Assembly (NCBI RefSeq): GCF_963665445.1
Contig: NZ_OY762276.1
Coordinates: forward strand, 2,231,001 to 2,295,000
From: an uncultured Desulfobulbus sp.
Lineage (GTDB): Bacteria; Desulfobacterota; Desulfobulbia; Desulfobulbales; Desulfobulbaceae
Direction of reading: 5' to 3'
Length of the DNA stretch: 64,000 bases
The notes below the pieces were generated by a model that saw nothing but the letters and a program-made list of their open reading frames with translations, had not been told where the DNA came from and ran no database searches. The position numbers and the translations under genes are program-made. Numbering within the stretch: the stretch's first letter is position 1; each line of letters starts with the position of its first letter. Positions 27,347 to 59,391 of the stretch are shown here, piece after piece.

Positions 27347-27750
27347 AATCAGTGCTCCGAAACAATTCTTTGGTACACTCAGAGGGCATCGAGGTAAAAA
27401 ATTCAGTCCAGTTCACCAAATTTTTCTGGATTTTCCCTTGTTGAATGTTTTCAGAACCGTGTATGTTCGCACCCATTTAGGTTCATTAGATCTTCGCGAC
27501 CTTATCCACAATCATTCTCGCAACAATCCTCGAGGGTGACATATTAGGGTGAGTTCTCATCAACGAGGTTCTTCACCTTGTTCGAAACGACAGAAGGAAG
27601 AGATCGAACCTCCACAGGCAAAACGATCTCGGGCCTGTCATCTCGGACTTCGGAACATACGTATTTTACTGGACCTGGCTTCGTCCATTGTCTTGTTTGA
27701 CGAGGCTATCAACATTCATACCCACCGCGGTTACTGCTGAGGAGTCCCGC
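27347..27750. other. Gene-free stretch between exporter and nuoE-like gene
   Basis: I see no convincing gene, repeat or hairpin terminator here. It must hold the promoter of the four-gene electron-transfer operon downstream, but no clear -35/-10 pair stands out. GAGGA at 27740-27744 is the ribosome site for the next gene. Confidence 0.5.
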
Positions 27751-28209
27751 ATGTCCTCTGAACAACCATCCCTGGAAGCAATACTGGCTGGCTACAATCA
27801 AGACAGAGACAATCTCATCCCCCTGTTGCAGGAAATCCAGGAACAGTTTCAATATCTCGCCCCCGAGGCGGTGACCGCCGTGGCGGACCATCTCAACCTC
27901 TCGGAAAACGATGTCTTCGGCGTGGCCACCTTTTACGCCCAGTTTCGCTTTGTGCCGCCTGGGTTGCACCACATCAAGGTCTGCGAGGGCACGGCCTGCC
28001 ATGTACGCGGTTCCGACCGCATTCTCGAATCCATCAGCCGCACCACCGGCATCGCCCCCGGCCAGACCAGCCCGGACGGCAAATTCAGCCTCGAGCGGGT
28101 GGCCTGTTTCGGCTCCTGCGCCCTGGCACCGGTGGTGGTGGTGGATGACAAGGTATACGGCCGCATGACCGCACCGAAAACGCAAAAGCTCATTGAGGAG
28201 AAGAAATGA
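27751..28209 (+). CDS. NuoE-like thioredoxin-fold [2Fe-2S] subunit
   Basis: Electron-transfer subunit of the NuoE/HndA/HydC type, 152 residues, which passes electrons to or from the flavoprotein partner. An amino-terminal helical region (ILAGYNQDRDNLIPLLQEIQ) is followed by the thioredoxin-like domain with cluster ligands in VCEGTACHVRGS (two cysteines) and VACFGSCALAP (two cysteines). Start ATG 27751 follows GAGGA. Its stop overlaps the start of the NuoF-like gene by 4 bases, so the proteins are probably made in equal amounts. Confidence 0.93.
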   Translation: MSSEQPSLEAILAGYNQDRDNLIPLLQEIQEQFQYLAPEAVTAVADHLNLSENDVFGVATFYAQFRFVPPGLHHIKVCEGTACHVRGSDRILESISRTTGIAPGQTSPDGKFSLERVACFGSCALAPVVVVDDKVYGRMTAPKTQKLIEEKK

Positions 28210-30059
28210 GTTTCTCAGCGCGACAAGAACAGGCTCAGGCCGTCTGGCAGGCATTCGTGCGACCCGAGCGCTTACGGGTCCTGATCGGTTCCGCCACCTG
28301 CGGCCGCGCCGCGGGTTCGCTGGAGGTGATGCAGGCCTTTCACCAGGAACTGGCGACCGCCGGTCTGACCGAGGCCACCGATGTGGTCGAGGTCGGCTGT
28401 CTGGGGATGTGCTATGCCGAGGTCCTGGTGGAACTCCGTGGCCGCGATGGCAAGCGGGTGCTCTATCAGGGGGTCGAGCCGCGTCATGTGGCGGATCTGG
28501 TCAAATCCCAATTGGTCCATGGCGAAATCTACCAGCCCCTGGCCCTTGCGGTGGTGGAGGGAGAGGACGATCAGGTGCCCGGATTTAACGAGTTGCCGAT
28601 GATTCAGCCCCAGGTGCGGATCGTCCTGCGTAACTGCGGCATCATTGATCCGAGCAACATCGACCATTACCTTGCCCGCGGCGGCTACATGGGCATCACC
28701 CGTGCATTTGCCATGGGACCCGATCAAGTGATCGAGGAGATGAAGGCCTCTGGGTTGCGCGGCCGTGGCGGTGCTGGTTTTCCCACCGGGATGAAATGGG
28801 GTTTTGCCCGCAAATCAGTAGCTGACCAGAAATACGTGATCTGCAACGCCGACGAGGGTGATCCCGGTGCCTTTATGGACCGCTCCGTGTTGGAAGGCGA
28901 TCCCCATGCTGTGCTGGAGGGCTTGCTCATTGCCGGCTATGCCATCGGCGCTACTGTCGGCTATGTCTACTGCCGTGCCGAATACCCGTTGGCCATCGAG
29001 AGGCTGCAGGGCGCCATTGCCCAGATGCGGCAACATGGTTTACTGGGAGCCAACATTCTCGGCTCCGGTTTTGATTTTACAATCAAGATCAAGAAGGGGG
29101 CCGGTGCCTTTGTCTGCGGCGAGGAGACCTCGCTGATGCAGTCGATCGAGGGCAAACGCGGCATGCCGCTCTCCAAGCCGCCCTTCCCGGCGGTTTCCGG
29201 CCTGTTCGGCAAGCCGACCAACATCAACAATGTCGAAACCCTGGCCGCGGTCTCGGCGATCATGGAAAAAGGCGCCCCGTGGTACGCAGGCTTTGGCACG
29301 GAAAAGAGCCGCGGCACCAAGACCTTTGCCCTGGCCGGCAAAATCAACCGCACCGGCCTGATCGAGGTCCCCATGGGCATCCCCCTGAAAACGATCATCG
29401 AGGATGTCGGCGGCGGCGTGCTTGGCGGAAAGGCCTTCAAGGCGGTGCAGACCGGTGGGCCGTCCGGCGGCTGTATCCCGGCCCAGTTCATCGACCTGCC
29501 GGTTGACTATGAACATCTGGCCAAGGTGGGCTCGATCATGGGCTCCGGCGGCATGATCGTGATCGACAACGAGTCCTGCATGGTCGACATGGCCCGCTAC
29601 TTCCTCACCTTCACCGAAAACGAATCCTGCGGCAAGTGCGTGCCCTGCCGCATGGGGACCCAGCATCTACTGCGCATCCTTACCGACATCACCCAAGGCA
29701 AAGGGAATCCCGCTCAGATCGAGACCCTGCGCAAGATCGGCGATACCATGAAGAGCGCCTCCCTCTGCGGCCTGGGGCAGACAGCGGCCAACCCGGTGCT
29801 CACCACGCTTCGCTATTTCGAGGACGAGTACCGCGCCCACATCGAGGACCACAAATGTCCGGCCGGCGCCTGCCGCGCCCTGATTGAGTTCAGTATCGAC
29901 CCGGCCCGCTGCACCGGTTGCGGTGCATGCAGGCGTGCCTGTCCGGTGGAGGCGATCACTGGTGAGAAAAAACAGGCGCACCTCATCAACCAAGAGCTCT
30001 GCATCCAGTGCGGCTCCTGCCGCCAGGTGTGCAAATTCGAGGCAGTGCTGGTTGATTGA
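28206..30059 (+). CDS. NuoF-like flavoprotein (HydB/HndC type) with ferredoxin tail
   Basis: Predicted NAD(H)-binding FMN subunit of a soluble complex, 617 residues. Domains in order: a thioredoxin-like domain (residues 20-115, cysteines 32, 65, 69; the fourth usual cysteine is absent), the NADH/FMN domain (GLRGRGGAGFPTGMKWGF at 183-200, NADEGDPGAFMDRS at 214-227), SLBB region, the N3-type [4Fe-4S] site (ESCGKCVPCRMG), and a carboxy-terminal 2x[4Fe-4S] ferredoxin (CTGCGACRRACP, CIQCGSCRQVC). This layout is that of bifurcating hydrogenase HydB and HndC, where FMN splits electrons. No hydrogenase subunit is encoded nearby. Confidence 0.93.
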   Translation: MSFSARQEQAQAVWQAFVRPERLRVLIGSATCGRAAGSLEVMQAFHQELATAGLTEATDVVEVGCLGMCYAEVLVELRGRDGKRVLYQGVEPRHVADLVKSQLVHGEIYQPLALAVVEGEDDQVPGFNELPMIQPQVRIVLRNCGIIDPSNIDHYLARGGYMGITRAFAMGPDQVIEEMKASGLRGRGGAGFPTGMKWGFARKSVADQKYVICNADEGDPGAFMDRSVLEGDPHAVLEGLLIAGYAIGATVGYVYCRAEYPLAIERLQGAIAQMRQHGLLGANILGSGFDFTIKIKKGAGAFVCGEETSLMQSIEGKRGMPLSKPPFPAVSGLFGKPTNINNVETLAAVSAIMEKGAPWYAGFGTEKSRGTKTFALAGKINRTGLIEVPMGIPLKTIIEDVGGGVLGGKAFKAVQTGGPSGGCIPAQFIDLPVDYEHLAKVGSIMGSGGMIVIDNESCMVDMARYFLTFTENESCGKCVPCRMGTQHLLRILTDITQGKGNPAQIETLRKIGDTMKSASLCGLGQTAANPVLTTLRYFEDEYRAHIEDHKCPAGACRALIEFSIDPARCTGCGACRRACPVEAITGEKKQAHLINQELCIQCGSCRQVCKFEAVLVD

Positions 30060-30112
30060 AGGACGCCAAGGAATAAACGAAACAGTTGAGTTGAACAATT
30101 CAAGGAGATTGC

Positions 30113-32614
30113 ATGGGCAGCATCAGCTTGACCATTGACGGACAAATCGTCGAGGTCCAGGAAGGTACAACGGTGCTTGAGGCCGCACGCAAGGCGGGAA
30201 TCACCATTCCCACCATCTGCGCCCACAAGGACCTTAACCCCTACGGCGCCTGCCGCATCTGCGTGGTCGAGATCGAAGGCGTACGCGGCTTTCCCACCTC
30301 CTGCACCACCCCGGCCACCCCGGGCATGCAGGTCACCACCCAGTCCGAGCGTTTGACCGAGTTGCGCAACCGTACCCTGGAGCTGATGTTCTCCGGTCAT
30401 CCCAACAGTTGCCTGGTCTGCGTCCACCGCGAGGCCTGCGAAAAGTACCGCCCGACAGCGACCAAGGCGGCCCGCTCCACCCGTTGCGGTTTCTGCGCCA
30501 ATCGCGATGAATGCGACCTGCGGGCCATGGCGCTCAAGGCCGGCAGCAACGAACTGCACCTGCCCACGCTCTACGCCTCCTACAATCTGGAGCGCGAAGA
30601 TCCCTTCATGGATCGCGACTACAACCTCTGCGTGCTCTGCGGCCGTTGCTGGCGTATCTGCGAGAAGATTCACGGGCAGCCGGCTATCTCGATCATCAAC
30701 CGCGGCAAGTGGGCCCGGATCGGCACCGCCTTTGACAAGAGCCATGTCTTTTCCGGCTGTACCTTCTGTGGGGCCTGCATCGATATCTGCCCCACCGGCA
30801 CCCTGACCGACCGCTTCGCCCGCTGGCAGGGCAAGCCGGAACAGGAGATCCCCTCGACCTGCCTGCTCTGTCCAGAAGGTTGTTCGGTGGTGGCCCAGAC
30901 CAAGGAGGGACGCCTGCTCGCCTATACCATGACCGCCTTTACCAAAGAGGCCGGCCTCTGTGCCCTGGGCCGTTTCGGGGCCGCGCAGATCGTGGCCGCG
31001 AGCAACCGGCTCACCCGGCCGCTGGTGCGTGAAGGTGAGGATTTGATCCCCATGGACTGGCAGGGGGCGATGCAAAGCGCGAGCACGGAACTGGCCAAGT
31101 ACAAAGGAAAAATCGCCCTGGTGGTCAGTGCCTCCACCCCGCGGGAAGCCCGTTATCTGTATTCGCAGATGGCTGCGCAGCTGGAGGGACAACTCCTCCT
31201 GCTGCCGGCTGAGGCGGGAGCGGATGATCCCCAGGTAGCCCTGCTGACAGACAAGGTGAAGGATGAATCCATTGCGGCCTTGATTGTCGGCGGCAACCTG
31301 GTCCCGGTTGACCTGATCCAACAGGCCGCCTTCTCGGTGGTGATCGATGCCCTGCCCTCGGCCGTGTCCGAGGCGGCAGCCGTGGTTTTGCCCGCGGCAA
31401 TCCTGAGCGAGACTGGCGGGACCTTCCGCAACGCCGAGGGCCAGATCAAGCCCATGGCCGGCTCCAGCCGGGCACCGGGCAAGGCCCAACCCGAATGGCA
31501 CATCCTCTGCGAGCTTGGCCAGTCGCTTAATCTGAGAGGCTTTGATTACAGCAGTGTTGCCGCCATCACCCCGACTATTGTCGACGATTCCTCGCCGGCA
31601 CCGATGACGGGCAACCCGCGGCAGAATGTGCGCGACCTGGTCACCCGATTCCGTGGCCATCTCCTGGCTGACATCATCCCCTCGCTTACCGCCTTTGACC
31701 TGCCCGCCACGCCCAAGGCCGTGGTTGCAGAGAGCACGGGGGAGGGATTTGCCATCCTCGAGAAACGGGAGATCGTGCCCAACATGCACTTCTTCAAGGT
31801 GCGCGCCCCACAGGTGGCCAAGTTTGCCCAGCCCGGTCAGTTCGTCATTCTCATGGCCAAGGAGACCTCGGAACGCTCACCCTTTACCCTGATCGACTGG
31901 GATGGCGAGGCTGGGACTATTTCGCTGGTCATCGAGGAGGTCGGCCGCTCCAGCCGTGAACTGGCCTCGCTGCGGGCCGGCGATACAATGGCCCATGTCA
32001 GCGGGCCGCTGGGCCTGCCGCTCACCATCGACAAAATGGGAACCGTGCTCCTGGGCGGCGGTTGCTACGGCATCGGCGCCATCCTGCCGCTGGCCCGGGC
32101 CCTGCGCCAGGCCGGTAACCGGGTAATCTGCGCCATTGAGGCATCGTCGAGCTACCTGCTCTACCTACGTGAGGAGTTGGCGGCGGTCTGCGACGAGTTG
32201 ATCATCGCCACCAAGGACGGCAGCGAAGGGGTCCGGGGCGGTATCCAGGAGGTGGTGACCCAGGTGGCGGCTCGCGAGCCGGTCAACCAGTTCATCGCCA
32301 TTGGCTGCACCTTCATGATGCGCATGGCCACCGAGGTTTCCAAGTCGCTTGCCATCCCCACCCTGGTGGCGCTCAACCCGATCATGGTCGACGGTACTGG
32401 CATGTGCGGCGCCTGCCGCGTCTCGGTGGGCACGGAAACCAAATTTGCCTGTGTCGATGGCCCGATCTTTGATGGCCATGACATCGACTGGGACGAGCTT
32501 GCCTCCAGGCGCAGCGCCTACAGCCGCCAGGAGGTCCAGGCATTGTCGCAGCAGGTCAATCTGGACGCGCTCATGCATCAACCCCATGAAGGCGGATGCG
32601 GCTGCGGCCGGTAA
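30113..32614 (+). CDS. NuoG-NfnA fusion: iron-sulfur subunit joined to ferredoxin-NADP reductase
   Basis: An 833-residue fusion. Residues 1-80: [2Fe-2S] ferredoxin (C36, C47, C50, C64). Residues 95-135: NuoG-like cysteine-rich segment, here doubled (C100/103/109 and C125/128/134). Residues 170-228: two [4Fe-4S] clusters (C173-183, C216-226). Residues 248-520: truncated molybdopterin-oxidoreductase-like domain with a four-cysteine site (C250, C253, C257, C283). Residues 540-833: NfnA/SudB-type ferredoxin-NADP reductase subunit with FAD motif RSPFTLIDWD, GGGCYGIGA and a [2Fe-2S] site (MCGACRVSV..FAC), ending GGCGCGR. No H-cluster motifs. It links the NuoEF module to NfnB. AAGGAG precedes the ATG. 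Confidence 0.92.
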   Translation: MGSISLTIDGQIVEVQEGTTVLEAARKAGITIPTICAHKDLNPYGACRICVVEIEGVRGFPTSCTTPATPGMQVTTQSERLTELRNRTLELMFSGHPNSCLVCVHREACEKYRPTATKAARSTRCGFCANRDECDLRAMALKAGSNELHLPTLYASYNLEREDPFMDRDYNLCVLCGRCWRICEKIHGQPAISIINRGKWARIGTAFDKSHVFSGCTFCGACIDICPTGTLTDRFARWQGKPEQEIPSTCLLCPEGCSVVAQTKEGRLLAYTMTAFTKEAGLCALGRFGAAQIVAASNRLTRPLVREGEDLIPMDWQGAMQSASTELAKYKGKIALVVSASTPREARYLYSQMAAQLEGQLLLLPAEAGADDPQVALLTDKVKDESIAALIVGGNLVPVDLIQQAAFSVVIDALPSAVSEAAAVVLPAAILSETGGTFRNAEGQIKPMAGSSRAPGKAQPEWHILCELGQSLNLRGFDYSSVAAITPTIVDDSSPAPMTGNPRQNVRDLVTRFRGHLLADIIPSLTAFDLPATPKAVVAESTGEGFAILEKREIVPNMHFFKVRAPQVAKFAQPGQFVILMAKETSERSPFTLIDWDGEAGTISLVIEEVGRSSRELASLRAGDTMAHVSGPLGLPLTIDKMGTVLLGGGCYGIGAILPLARALRQAGNRVICAIEASSSYLLYLREELAAVCDELIIATKDGSEGVRGGIQEVVTQVAAREPVNQFIAIGCTFMMRMATEVSKSLAIPTLVALNPIMVDGTGMCGACRVSVGTETKFACVDGPIFDGHDIDWDELASRRSAYSRQEVQALSQQVNLDALMHQPHEGGCGCGR

Positions 32615-32647
32615 GCAGAATCGATTATTGAGGCAAGGTATTCAATT

Positions 32648-34099
32648 ATGACAACCAGTGATCCCAAGGCCGAGCAGACAGCGTCCCCGAAAAAAGGCAG
32701 AACGAAAATCCCGCGCCAGCCCATGCCCGAGCAGGACCCGCGCCGCCGCCGCACCAACTTCGAAGAGGTGCCCCGCGGCTACAGCGAGGAGACCGCCATG
32801 CTCGAGGCCTCGCGCTGCCTGCAGTGCAAAAAACCGGCCTGCGTGGACGGTTGCCCGGTCAATATCATGATCCCGGCCTTTATCAAGAAGATTGCCGAGG
32901 GCAGGTTCGTCGACGCCCTCTTGAAACTGAAAGAACATACCGCCCTGCCCGCGGTCTGTGGCCGGGTCTGTCCCCAGGAGAGCCAGTGCGAGTCACGCTG
33001 CATCCTCGGCAAGAAAGGCGAGCCGGTGGCCATCGGCCGCCTGGAACGCTTTGCCGCCGATTATGCCCGCAAGCACGGCGGGGTACCGGCGCCAGCCATG
33101 GCTCCCGCAACCGGAAAACGGGTGGCGGTGGTCGGGGCTGGGCCGGCCGGGATCACCGTGGCCGGCGAGATGGCCCGCTGGGGCCATGAGGTGGTGATGT
33201 TCGAGGCCCTGCATCTGGCCGGCGGGGTACTCATGTACGGCATCCCCCAGTTTCGTCTGCCCAAGGAGATTGTCCAGTACGAGGTGAACTCCCTGAAGCG
33301 CATGGGGGTCACCATCCATACCGACTATGTGATCGGCAAGTCCGAGACCGTGGATCAGCTCCTGGATGCAGGATTCGATACGGTGTTCATCGCAACAGGA
33401 GCGGGACTGCCCATGTTTCTCGGTATCCCCAATGAAAATGCCATTGGTGTCTTCTCGGCCAACGAATTTCTCACCCGGGCTAACCTGATGCGGGCGATCG
33501 ACTTTCCCCGCTTTGCCACCTCGCCCATCCGCCCCCATCGGGCAGTCACCGTTGGCGGCGGCAACGTGGCCATGGATGCGGCCCGGACCGCCCTACGGCT
33601 CGGTGCGGAATCCGCCATCGTCTACCGCCGCTCCAAGGCGGAGATGCCCGCGCGCGGCGAGGAGATCCATCACGCCGAGGAGGAAGGGGTGGTCTTTCAC
33701 ATGCTGACCAACCCCAAGCGGATTGTCATCGACGAGCGCAACCGGGTCACCGGGGTGGAATGCCTGAAGATGGAACTGGGCGAGCCCGACGCCTCAGGCA
33801 GACGGCGGCCGGTGACGGTGGAAGGGAGCGAGTATATCGTCCCCGCGGATACGGTGATCGTGGCCATCGGCAACCGGCCCAATCCCCTGGTGCCCCAGAC
33901 CGCGCCCGAGATCGAGACCTCACGCTGGGGCACGATCAACGCCGATGCCGAAACCATGATGACCTCCAAGCTCGGTGTCTTTGCCGGTGGCGATATCGTC
34001 TCCGGAGCAGCCACAGTCATCAGCGCCATGGGCCAGGGGAAGAAGGCGGCCTTTTACATGCACCGCTACCTCATGGGTGTTGATCCGCCCCAGGCGTAA
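32648..34099 (+). CDS. nfnB: NfnB-like NADPH-binding flavoprotein (GltD family)
   Basis: Large subunit of NADH-dependent ferredoxin:NADP oxidoreductase; in known NfnB its FAD bifurcates electrons from NADPH. The 483-residue product has two amino-terminal [4Fe-4S] motifs (CLQCKKPACVDGCPV and CGRVCPQESQCESRC), an FAD Rossmann motif VVGAGPAGITVAGEMA, an NADPH motif GGGNVAMDAARTALRLG and the final AGGDIVSGAATVISAMGQGK FAD segment. It could also be read as glutamate synthase small subunit, but the NfnA domain encoded just upstream argues for Nfn. A terminator follows. Confidence 0.92.
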   Translation: MTTSDPKAEQTASPKKGRTKIPRQPMPEQDPRRRRTNFEEVPRGYSEETAMLEASRCLQCKKPACVDGCPVNIMIPAFIKKIAEGRFVDALLKLKEHTALPAVCGRVCPQESQCESRCILGKKGEPVAIGRLERFAADYARKHGGVPAPAMAPATGKRVAVVGAGPAGITVAGEMARWGHEVVMFEALHLAGGVLMYGIPQFRLPKEIVQYEVNSLKRMGVTIHTDYVIGKSETVDQLLDAGFDTVFIATGAGLPMFLGIPNENAIGVFSANEFLTRANLMRAIDFPRFATSPIRPHRAVTVGGGNVAMDAARTALRLGAESAIVYRRSKAEMPARGEEIHHAEEEGVVFHMLTNPKRIVIDERNRVTGVECLKMELGEPDASGRRRPVTVEGSEYIVPADTVIVAIGNRPNPLVPQTAPEIETSRWGTINADAETMMTSKLGVFAGGDIVSGAATVISAMGQGKKAAFYMHRYLMGVDPPQA

Positions 34100-34121: not shown

Positions 34122-34153
34122 GGCGGCATCGATTTCCGGTGCCGCCTTTTTTT
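34122..34153 (+). terminator. Rho-independent terminator after nfnB
   Basis: Seven-base stem GGCGGCA/TGCCGCC, 11-base loop, seven T residues. Ends the nuoE-nfnB operon. Confidence 0.88.
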
Positions 34154-59238: not shown

Positions 59239-59277
59239 ATTGATCTCTACAATTCTTGTTATATATTCACCCGATGT

Positions 59278-59370
59278 GACTGGTTGAGTTGGCTGGTGCC
59301 GGCCGCGGGCTTCAACCCCGTTGAGCTCCTTGTGAAAGAGCAGCTGTTTGGTTCGATTCCGAAGCCAGTC
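59278..59370 (+). tRNA. selC: tRNA-Sec (anticodon UCA)
   Basis: Selenocysteine tRNA, needed to read UGA as selenocysteine. The fold fits bacterial tRNA-Sec: an 8-bp acceptor stem GACTGGTT (59278-59285) with AGCCAGTC (59363-59370); a 6-bp D stem GTTGGC/GCCGGC with the 4-base loop TGGT (59288-59303); anticodon stem-loop GCGGG-CTTCAAC-CCCGT (59305-59321) with anticodon TCA at 59312-59314; a long variable arm (59324-59345); and a T arm with loop TTCGATT (59352-59358). Odd points: the next base, the discriminator, is T rather than G, and CCA is not encoded (TCCC follows). Confidence 0.85.
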
Positions 59371-59391
59371 TCCCCCCCTTCTCTCCTGCCT

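Follow-up and report, generated by a model that had tools for sequence, protein, structure and literature searches.

An operon with a BfuA-NfnA fusion gene encodes sequence features of two different electron-bifurcation sites

We analyzed a window of 64,000 nucleotides from an uncultured Desulfobulbus sp. (NCBI RefSeq assembly GCF_963665445.1, contig NZ_OY762276.1, positions 2,231,001 to 2,295,000, forward strand), whose source genome is a single contig of 5.08 Mb. At positions 27751-34099 the window contains four adjoining open reading frames (ORFs) on the plus strand, which encode a HydC/BfuC-type NuoE, a HydB/BfuB-type NuoF, a fusion of the NuoG-like protein BfuA with NfnA, and NfnB. The original prediction had described four adjacent genes for NuoE, NuoF with a ferredoxin tail, a NuoG-NfnA fusion and NfnB, and had proposed a probable hydrogenase-free complex that could couple NADH, NADPH and ferredoxin. 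The gene assignments are borne out by the ORF list and by Pfam and NCBIfam matches (Table 1), and the operon, the fusion and conserved synteny support association of the proteins in a complex that should link the three carriers.

The four genes form one operon, in which bfuC and bfuB overlap by 4 bases (ATGA), the later intergenic gaps are 53 and 33 bases, and a terminator-like hairpin follows nfnB. Sites matching the terminator consensus number 11 in the region, compared with a mean of 6.5 in shuffles. The bfuC start codon is an ATG with GGAG just 5' of it, and the ORF list also holds an upstream TTG at 27688. Shine-Dalgarno-like sequences lie 5' of the gene starts, the weakest ahead of nfnB. 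The only tRNA gene found in the window, at 59277-59374, is that for selenocysteine.

Table 1. Features of the BfuA-NfnA operon (positions in the 64,000-nucleotide window; FMN, flavin mononucleotide; FAD, flavin adenine dinucleotide)
Feature	Position	Strand	Basis
bfuC/hydC/nuoE-like, 152 aa, one [2Fe-2S]	27751..28209	+	Pfam PF01257 (2Fe-2S_thioredx), 1.1e-51
bfuB/hydB-type NuoF, 617 aa: FMN/NAD(H) domain, B1 and B2 clusters, C-terminal 2x[4Fe-4S] ferredoxin-like domain	28206..30059	+	Pfam Complex1_51K, NADH_4Fe-4S
BfuA(NuoG)::NfnA fusion, 833 aa	30113..32614	+	Pfam, NCBIfam, AlphaFold2, Foldseek
NfnA half of fusion	31748..32554	+	FAD motif ERxPxT and [2Fe-2S] ligands D760/C765/C768/C780 kept; C651, E676, C732 changed
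nfnB, 483 aa: FAD, NADP(H) site, two [4Fe-4S], E111, R203	32648..34099	+	Pfam Fer4_20, Pyr_redox_2; NCBIfam TIGR01316, 578 bits
Terminator-like hairpin directly after nfnB: 10-bp stem, 8 G-C pairs, T7	34122..34146	+	Consensus match

The fusion protein begins with a Fer2 domain (residues 1-78), followed by a doubled [4Fe-4S] motif (96-134), a 2x[4Fe-4S] segment (164-232) and a [4Fe-4S] site at C250/C253/C257/C283, whose four cysteines are invariant in 30/30 aligned rows. A degenerate molybdopterin-like domain (about 300-530) then leads to NfnA (546-814), which matches NCBIfam PRK06222 (NfnA type) with 326 bits. The Pfam matches are Fer2_4, NADH-G_4Fe-4S_3, Fer4_Nqo3, a partial Molybdopterin and DHODB_Fe-S_bind; they include neither the H-cluster domain PF02906 nor a C-terminal domain that binds molybdopterin guanine dinucleotide (MGD), and the molybdopterin match covers just a fragment of its profile (275-351 of 353), in agreement with the earlier statement that no H-cluster or molybdenum partner is encoded. 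An AlphaFold2 model of the chain (mean predicted local distance difference test score, pLDDT, 72.4; predicted template modelling score, pTM, 0.48) is confident over most of 241-520 and 546-800, and its top Foldseek matches are Nfn small subunits (5jca_S, 5vj7_B, 4ylf_A), then NuoG-type chains.

The doubled cysteine motif, C100/C103/C109 followed by C125/C128/C134, had earlier been called unusual. The motif is genuine, and relatives conserve it to 90% or more, but it is not peculiar to the fusion: the formate dehydrogenase (Fdh)-type BfuA of one locus (L083; L and G numbers are our handles for loci and genomes) and the unfused BfuA of another (L102) have it too, and we dropped it as a signature of the complex. 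In the former, a Latescibacterota BfuA (L083 5899-8730), the motif is combined with a fuller molybdopterin oxidoreductase domain, and this protein probably belongs to an Fdh-type Bfu enzyme.

The fusion, which is old, is not an artefact of assembly or reading frame, a possibility that the original prediction had itself raised, as fused ORFs occur in 7 other genomes of the genus and on contigs of two cultured strains, Desulfobulbus rhabdoformis DSM 8777 and Desulfogranum japonicum DSM 18378. The latter strain has two copies of the entire fused operon (L041, L049). Among named sequences, those of Desulfobulbus are closest to the fusion, and the order BfuC, BfuB, fusion, NfnB holds in all 26 of the fused loci with enough flank, among which frame breaks affect BfuB of L050 and L058, the fusion of L069 and NfnB of L071. 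In L071 (3551-5980), a single ORF of 810 residues combines BfuC with BfuB. When named genomes were scanned, they yielded 47 loci, not all with the fusion, from Desulfobulbus, Desulfogranum japonicum, Desulfonatronum, Syntrophobacteraceae, Phycisphaerales, Riflebacteria and Neomarinimicrobiota among others; most are metagenome bins with names as deposited, and the fused contigs are assigned to several phyla. A class survey took in 159 genomes with a completeness of 90% or more; the fusion is present in 9 of them, and another 41 have an NfnA match but no fusion. In a survey of 394 genomes of the phylum, the fusion appeared in 4 among the matches listed, one of them split over two contigs.

Within the genus, the fusion and stand-alone NfnA exclude each other. 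The 23 genomes surveyed, the source genome included, comprise 8 with a full-length fusion, 13 with a stand-alone NfnA (43-46% identical), none with both and 2 with neither, one of which is only 76% complete. The chance of no overlap would be 9e-5 if the genomes were independent, which they are not. Because of this exclusion, it looks as if the complex replaces Nfn in the genus. None of the 9 fusion-bearing genomes of the class survey has a second, stand-alone NfnA match, and the source genome has no second NfnA, the next match to the NfnA half being 30% identical; a GltD-like protein elsewhere in that genome is 45% identical to NfnB.

Relatives also carry BfuA and NfnA as separate neighbours. 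The phylum survey holds at least 14 genomes with BfuA-type and NfnA matches within about 3 kb on one contig, and G510 is another; these counts of unfused operons are lower bounds. We fetched 12 candidate regions and found BfuA, NfnA and NfnB consecutive in 9, of which 7 (L123-L127, L133, L134) have all five genes in the window's order and 2 lie at contig starts; in L133 NfnB is split between two frames, and in L125 the NfnA match falls into two pieces. Of the last three regions, one holds a fused copy, one a divergent arrangement and one an ordinary Nfn pair. In the divergent arrangement (L132, genome G306), BfuC and a BfuB::GltD fusion are on one strand, with BfuA, NfnA and NfnB on the other. 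A further group has the order BfuC-BfuA-NfnA-NfnB-BfuB, with all five genes in 6/10 loci (L065, L066, L067, L074, L076, L080) and two more (L064, L075) cut by contig ends. Since they are fused here and are neighbours in both same-order and reordered operons of relatives, BfuA and NfnA would be partners by the Rosetta stone argument. The gene linkage is thus strong, with exceptions in metagenome bins.

We built a maximum-likelihood tree from 55 Bfu-linked and 31 canonical NfnA sequences and rooted it on Pyrococcus furiosus NfnII. In it, the Bfu-linked sequences form a clade with ultrafast bootstrap (UFBoot) support of 98 (55 leaves), inside which the fused copies form a clade with support of 100 (34 leaves). 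Counted as fused are the frame-broken L069 and three copies cut by contig ends (L060, L061, L081). The tree leaves out same-contig duplicates (L001, L010-L013, L015), L087, short fragments and the near-duplicates L085, L086 and L131; some close relatives remain (L009/L045). The simplest history would be an unfused five-gene operon in which the fusion arose later, once.

Several of these operons have variant subunits. In one unfused group, BfuC is about 340 residues long (L066 4903-5913, L074 789-1811; long also in L064, L065, L067, L075-L080, L082 and L084), and Pfam places an N-terminal response-regulator receiver domain in the two members that we checked. A Cache-HAMP-HisKA sensor kinase gene lies 3' of the operon in 3/3 long-BfuC loci examined, which suggests signal control of the bifurcation gate. 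In L052 (2729-5956), L053, L054, L056, L063 and L070, a GltD (NADPH-type) module, identified by Pfam for L052, takes the place of the C-terminal ferredoxin domain of BfuB. This module lacks the NfnB glutamate, and such complexes would hold two GltD domains. Finally, L102 (5039-11272) is a Bfu operon with a Bfu-type NfnA and no adjoining NfnB, followed by a gene for a cyclic-nucleotide-binding protein; its genome has a further NfnA match elsewhere.

The proteins of the operon retain the residues that mark bifurcation in two enzyme families. BfuB, whose best PDB matches are 7t2r_B (759 bits) and 8oh5_B (749 bits), has the Bfu-family layout of FMN domain, NADH_4Fe-4S and C-terminal Fe-S domain, together with the 2Fe-2S protein BfuC, whose four-Cys motif is present in 44/44 BLAST match lines checked. 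According to the relevant sections of Schut 2022 (PMC9304861), the B2-cluster residues of Bfu enzymes include a histidine that is absent from non-bifurcating homologues. The corresponding H545 (H525 of the NiFe-Bfu B2 cluster) is kept in 39/39 aligned rows, the B2 ligands C458, C551 and C556 in 38/39 rows each, and the variable position of C476 is occupied by T496. The window protein has the full set of ligands for the C-terminal 2x[4Fe-4S] clusters. Where an N-terminal [2Fe-2S] cluster B5 would lie, there are three cysteines, as in StnB: C32 (28/39 rows), C65 (32/39 rows) and C69.

NfnB, in turn, is closest among PDB entries to Thermotoga maritima NfnB (4ylf_B, 523 bits). Among the motifs described for NfnB, in the parts of the source that treat them, are a glutamate that ligates the proximal cluster and an arginine that contacts N5 of the FAD (PMC6405883). 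The window protein has the cluster motifs RCx2Cx4Cx3CPV and GRVCPQExQC, the latter with E111, as well as the FAD motifs and the N5 arginine. GRVCPQE is found in 44/45 complex-group matches, the exception being a 292-residue fragment without the motif; R203 is kept in 43/43 aligned rows, and a pattern search found the arginine motif in 42 of the 45 complex-group matches. Since the glutamate and arginine typical of bifurcating Nfn are retained in NfnB, and the B2 histidine typical of bifurcating Bfu enzymes in BfuB, one operon encodes, as judged from sequence, features of two different bifurcation sites.

The NfnA half had been described as complete. Its FAD and [2Fe-2S] motifs are indeed kept, but it is not an ordinary NAD-handling NfnA. 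In folds of the ferredoxin reductase type, the motifs GGG, LG(A/F)R and GP border the site for pyridine nucleotides, and in the fusion GGG reads GGC (C651), the glycine of LG(A/F)R is glutamate (E676) and GP reads GC (C732). All three residues occur in 55/55 Bfu-linked NfnA and in 0/31 canonical NfnA, which include P. furiosus NfnI and T. maritima NfnA. They are thus a simple marker that split Bfu-linked from ordinary NfnA in every sequence compared. The last threonine of ERxPxT is serine in 6/11 unfused colinear-type copies and alanine in 1 fused copy. Of the 55 Bfu-linked copies, 54 keep the [2Fe-2S] ligands, and the remaining row, an unfused one, is masked at the cysteines. L102 shows C651/E676/C732-type residues without an adjoining NfnB, which indicates that the three residues track the Bfu partnership. 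As all Bfu-linked sequences are one clade, the changes may have arisen once; that they have stayed unchanged since their origin favors a function for them. An extra metal site built from C651, C732 and C-terminal cysteines was considered and dropped, as C829 is present in 13/13 canonical NfnA compared and C831 in only 20/44 complex copies.

The surroundings of the operon were scanned for a missing hydrogenase or Fdh partner, whose constant presence would have spoken against the original prediction. The scan covered 83/108 neighbor ORFs at 30/31 related loci (L042 left out) and the 25 of 116 Pfam families listed, with single matches seen in part. Neither a hydrogenase nor a formate dehydrogenase is among the 17 families matched by at least two of these ORFs, and we rejected such a partner on this ground. 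Two neighbor ORFs match complex I/Mrp antiporter families. The [FeFe] hydrogenase of the genome lies away from the operon beside its own BfuB and BfuA, in a HydABC-type locus, and the H-cluster domain PF02906 occurs twice in the genome, at 1792155 and 1798077. A HoxF-type gene and complex I, judged from length and match, lie elsewhere in the genome. A plasmid search gave no match.

Among known systems, the Stn (Nfn-Bfu) enzyme StnABC of Sporomusa ovata is related to the operon through its modules, in line with the earlier remark that it recalls Stn while domain order and partners may differ. Like Stn, it combines NuoE, a HydB-type core and a NuoG-like third protein, and would couple NAD(H), NADP(H) and ferredoxin without a hydrogenase. 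In the parts of the Stn report that bear on this, Stn has no NfnA homologue, has lysine for the proximal glutamate, and has a non-bifurcating FAD in its GltD domain (PMC10482914). We rejected a Stn orthologue on three defining features: the GltD domain of Stn is inserted inside the NuoG protein, whereas here GltD/NfnB is a separate subunit of the bifurcating type; NfnA, absent from Stn, is here fused to NuoG; and E111 stands where Stn has K170 at the proximal cluster. In the Stn-like chain 9bov_A, the GltD domain lies at the place of the fusion's doubled cysteine motif.

The other relatives share modules with the operon. NfnAB has the same NfnB cluster, FAD and arginine motifs and NfnA FAD and [2Fe-2S] motifs, but it is a two-subunit enzyme without HydBC homologues, whereas here BfuC, BfuB and BfuA are added, NfnA is fused to BfuA and its NAD-site motifs are changed. 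HydABC (FeFe-Bfu) and NiFe-Bfu enzymes share the BfuBC core, the B2 histidine, the C-terminal 2x[4Fe-4S] domain and the BfuA Fe-S chain; unlike them, this operon has no H-cluster and no NiFe subunits. The benzoyl-CoA reductase Bam-Bfu, presented in part of PMC9304861 as a proposed union of a Bfu module with a second bifurcating module, is similar in that respect, but its second module is HdrA, not NfnAB, and its substrate is another. P. furiosus NfnII (Xfn) is an NfnAB-like pair whose small subunit lacks the NAD-binding motif, but it has other residues at the NAD site and is described, in the sections concerned, as a pair with no Bfu partner named. The fdhF2-nfnB pair of Seep-SRB1g, as partly described in PMC10553843, is a different arrangement. 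We found no description in the literature of a BfuA-NfnA fusion or of a Bfu core joined to NfnAB, though supplements to Bfu classifications may already list it. That the operon encodes a Bfu-family variant that also carries NfnAB is well supported by these comparisons, and the arrangement is new as far as we found.

We propose, with a probability of about one half, that the operon encodes a soluble electron-bifurcating/confurcating transhydrogenase complex, in which a BfuBC core is joined to NfnAB through BfuA. Our view of its assembly, of the loss of NAD+ use by NfnA, of wiring and of direction builds on the genes, the fusion, the conservation and the ligand and motif pattern. The four chains likely assemble into one complex, as operon, fusion and synteny suggest. 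The BfuBC core, with FMN and Fe-S clusters, would handle NAD(H) and ferredoxin, and NfnAB, with its bifurcating FAD, would handle NADP(H) and ferredoxin. Electrons would pass between NADP(H) and the b-FAD of NfnB, then the [2Fe-2S] cluster and a-FAD of NfnA, then the BfuA Fe-S chain, and finally the FMN of BfuB and NAD(H), with ferredoxin exchanged at the C-terminal clusters of BfuB and the distal cluster of NfnB. We infer that the NfnA FAD exchanges electrons with the BfuA chain instead of NAD+, with the point of entry probably at C250-C283, the place of the metal site in a formate dehydrogenase. In the Type 1 Fdh-Bfu enzyme, as portions of PMC9304861 describe it, the pterin site adjoins cluster A5. 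By analogy, C250/C253/C257/C283 may hold an A5-like cluster, and NfnA would take the place of the remainder of the molybdenum domain.

This arrangement could place two different bifurcation sites in series, the FAD of NfnB and the FMN/Fe-S site of BfuBC, with the NAD site of NfnA rebuilt into an electron link to BfuA, a possibility that we hold only tentatively. With E' values of -280 (NADH), -380 (NADPH) and -500 mV (ferredoxin), an Nfn-type stoichiometry is computed to be near equilibrium (-1.9 kJ per NADPH), and the fully coupled series, NADH + 3 Fd2- -> 4 NADPH (Fd2-, reduced ferredoxin), yields -12.5 kJ per NADPH. Because the reverse of the coupled series is uphill, formation of NADPH from NADH and reduced ferredoxin is the most likely direction. 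With full coupling at both sites, four NADPH would be made from about one NADH and three Fd2-, compared with the 1:1:2 ratio of Nfn and Stn.

Several observations weigh against the proposed complex. The energetics are awkward, since the high-branch electrons of Nfn look too oxidizing for ferredoxin reduction by BfuBC, and serial flow would be sensible mainly towards NADPH. A block of NAD+ by C651, E676 and C732 is what we infer from the motifs, the first of which retains the pattern GGxxG, and all 21 unfused copies keep the arginine that lies two positions past E676. The AlphaFold2 model is of the fusion chain alone and is poor at 113-240, in the Fe-S region. An earlier, quicker FastTree (47 Bfu-linked, 29 canonical) supports the Bfu-linked clade at only 0.66. 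In the reordered group, the fetched flanks lack BfuB in L079 and both BfuC and BfuB in L072, where NfnB is partial, and in two relatives of that group (L078, L082) the fetched flank shows BfuC and BfuA without NfnA; these four loci are metagenome bins, in which bin or assembly faults are possible. The mutual exclusion of Bfu-linked and stand-alone NfnA is not general: both kinds occur together in G510 and in G102. Across the class the test is weak (P = 0.06), and that within the genus takes no account of common ancestry or of gaps in draft genomes.

The awkward energetics would be simpler in a Stn-like single-site enzyme, in which BfuBC would be the sole site of bifurcation and NfnB and NfnA would do no more than pass on electrons from NADPH. 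This would match Stn, whose GltD domain feeds the HydBC core through a non-bifurcating FAD in the portion of PMC10482914 that describes it. We consider it unlikely, because simple delivery would need neither the proximal-cluster glutamate that NfnB keeps where Stn has lysine, nor the Asp/Cys3 ligands of the NfnA [2Fe-2S] cluster. Another idea is that the two enzymes are independent and merely tethered, NfnAB still using NAD+ at NfnA while BfuABC uses something else or channels substrates. Both modules look complete and the genes are unfused in some genomes, but no third substrate site is evident for BfuABC, with no H-cluster or MGD domain matched in the fusion, and the NAD motifs of NfnA are altered in every Bfu-linked copy compared; we regard this as very improbable.

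The residues C651, E676 and C732 do not drift like those of an abandoned site, and their invariance makes it a live alternative that the NfnA pocket is still used, for another substrate: the two cysteines by the flavin could form a redox disulfide or a carrier site, to which BfuBC and NfnB would supply electrons. P. furiosus NfnII also lost the NAD motif from its small subunit, shows no NAD+-dependent activity and may have another acceptor, according to the sections of PMC6405883 that deal with it. However, no neighbor gene among the families listed suggests such a substrate, and the residues track linkage to BfuA, which the fusion provides as a nearer partner. We therefore think a separate substrate rather doubtful.

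The operon probably serves to balance the cell's NADH, NADPH and ferredoxin. If real, the proposed complex, encoded in sulfate-reducer-type and other anaerobes, would join Nfn and Stn as a third architecture that links transhydrogenation to ferredoxin, and it would be a natural case of two bifurcation mechanisms sharing one Fe-S chain.

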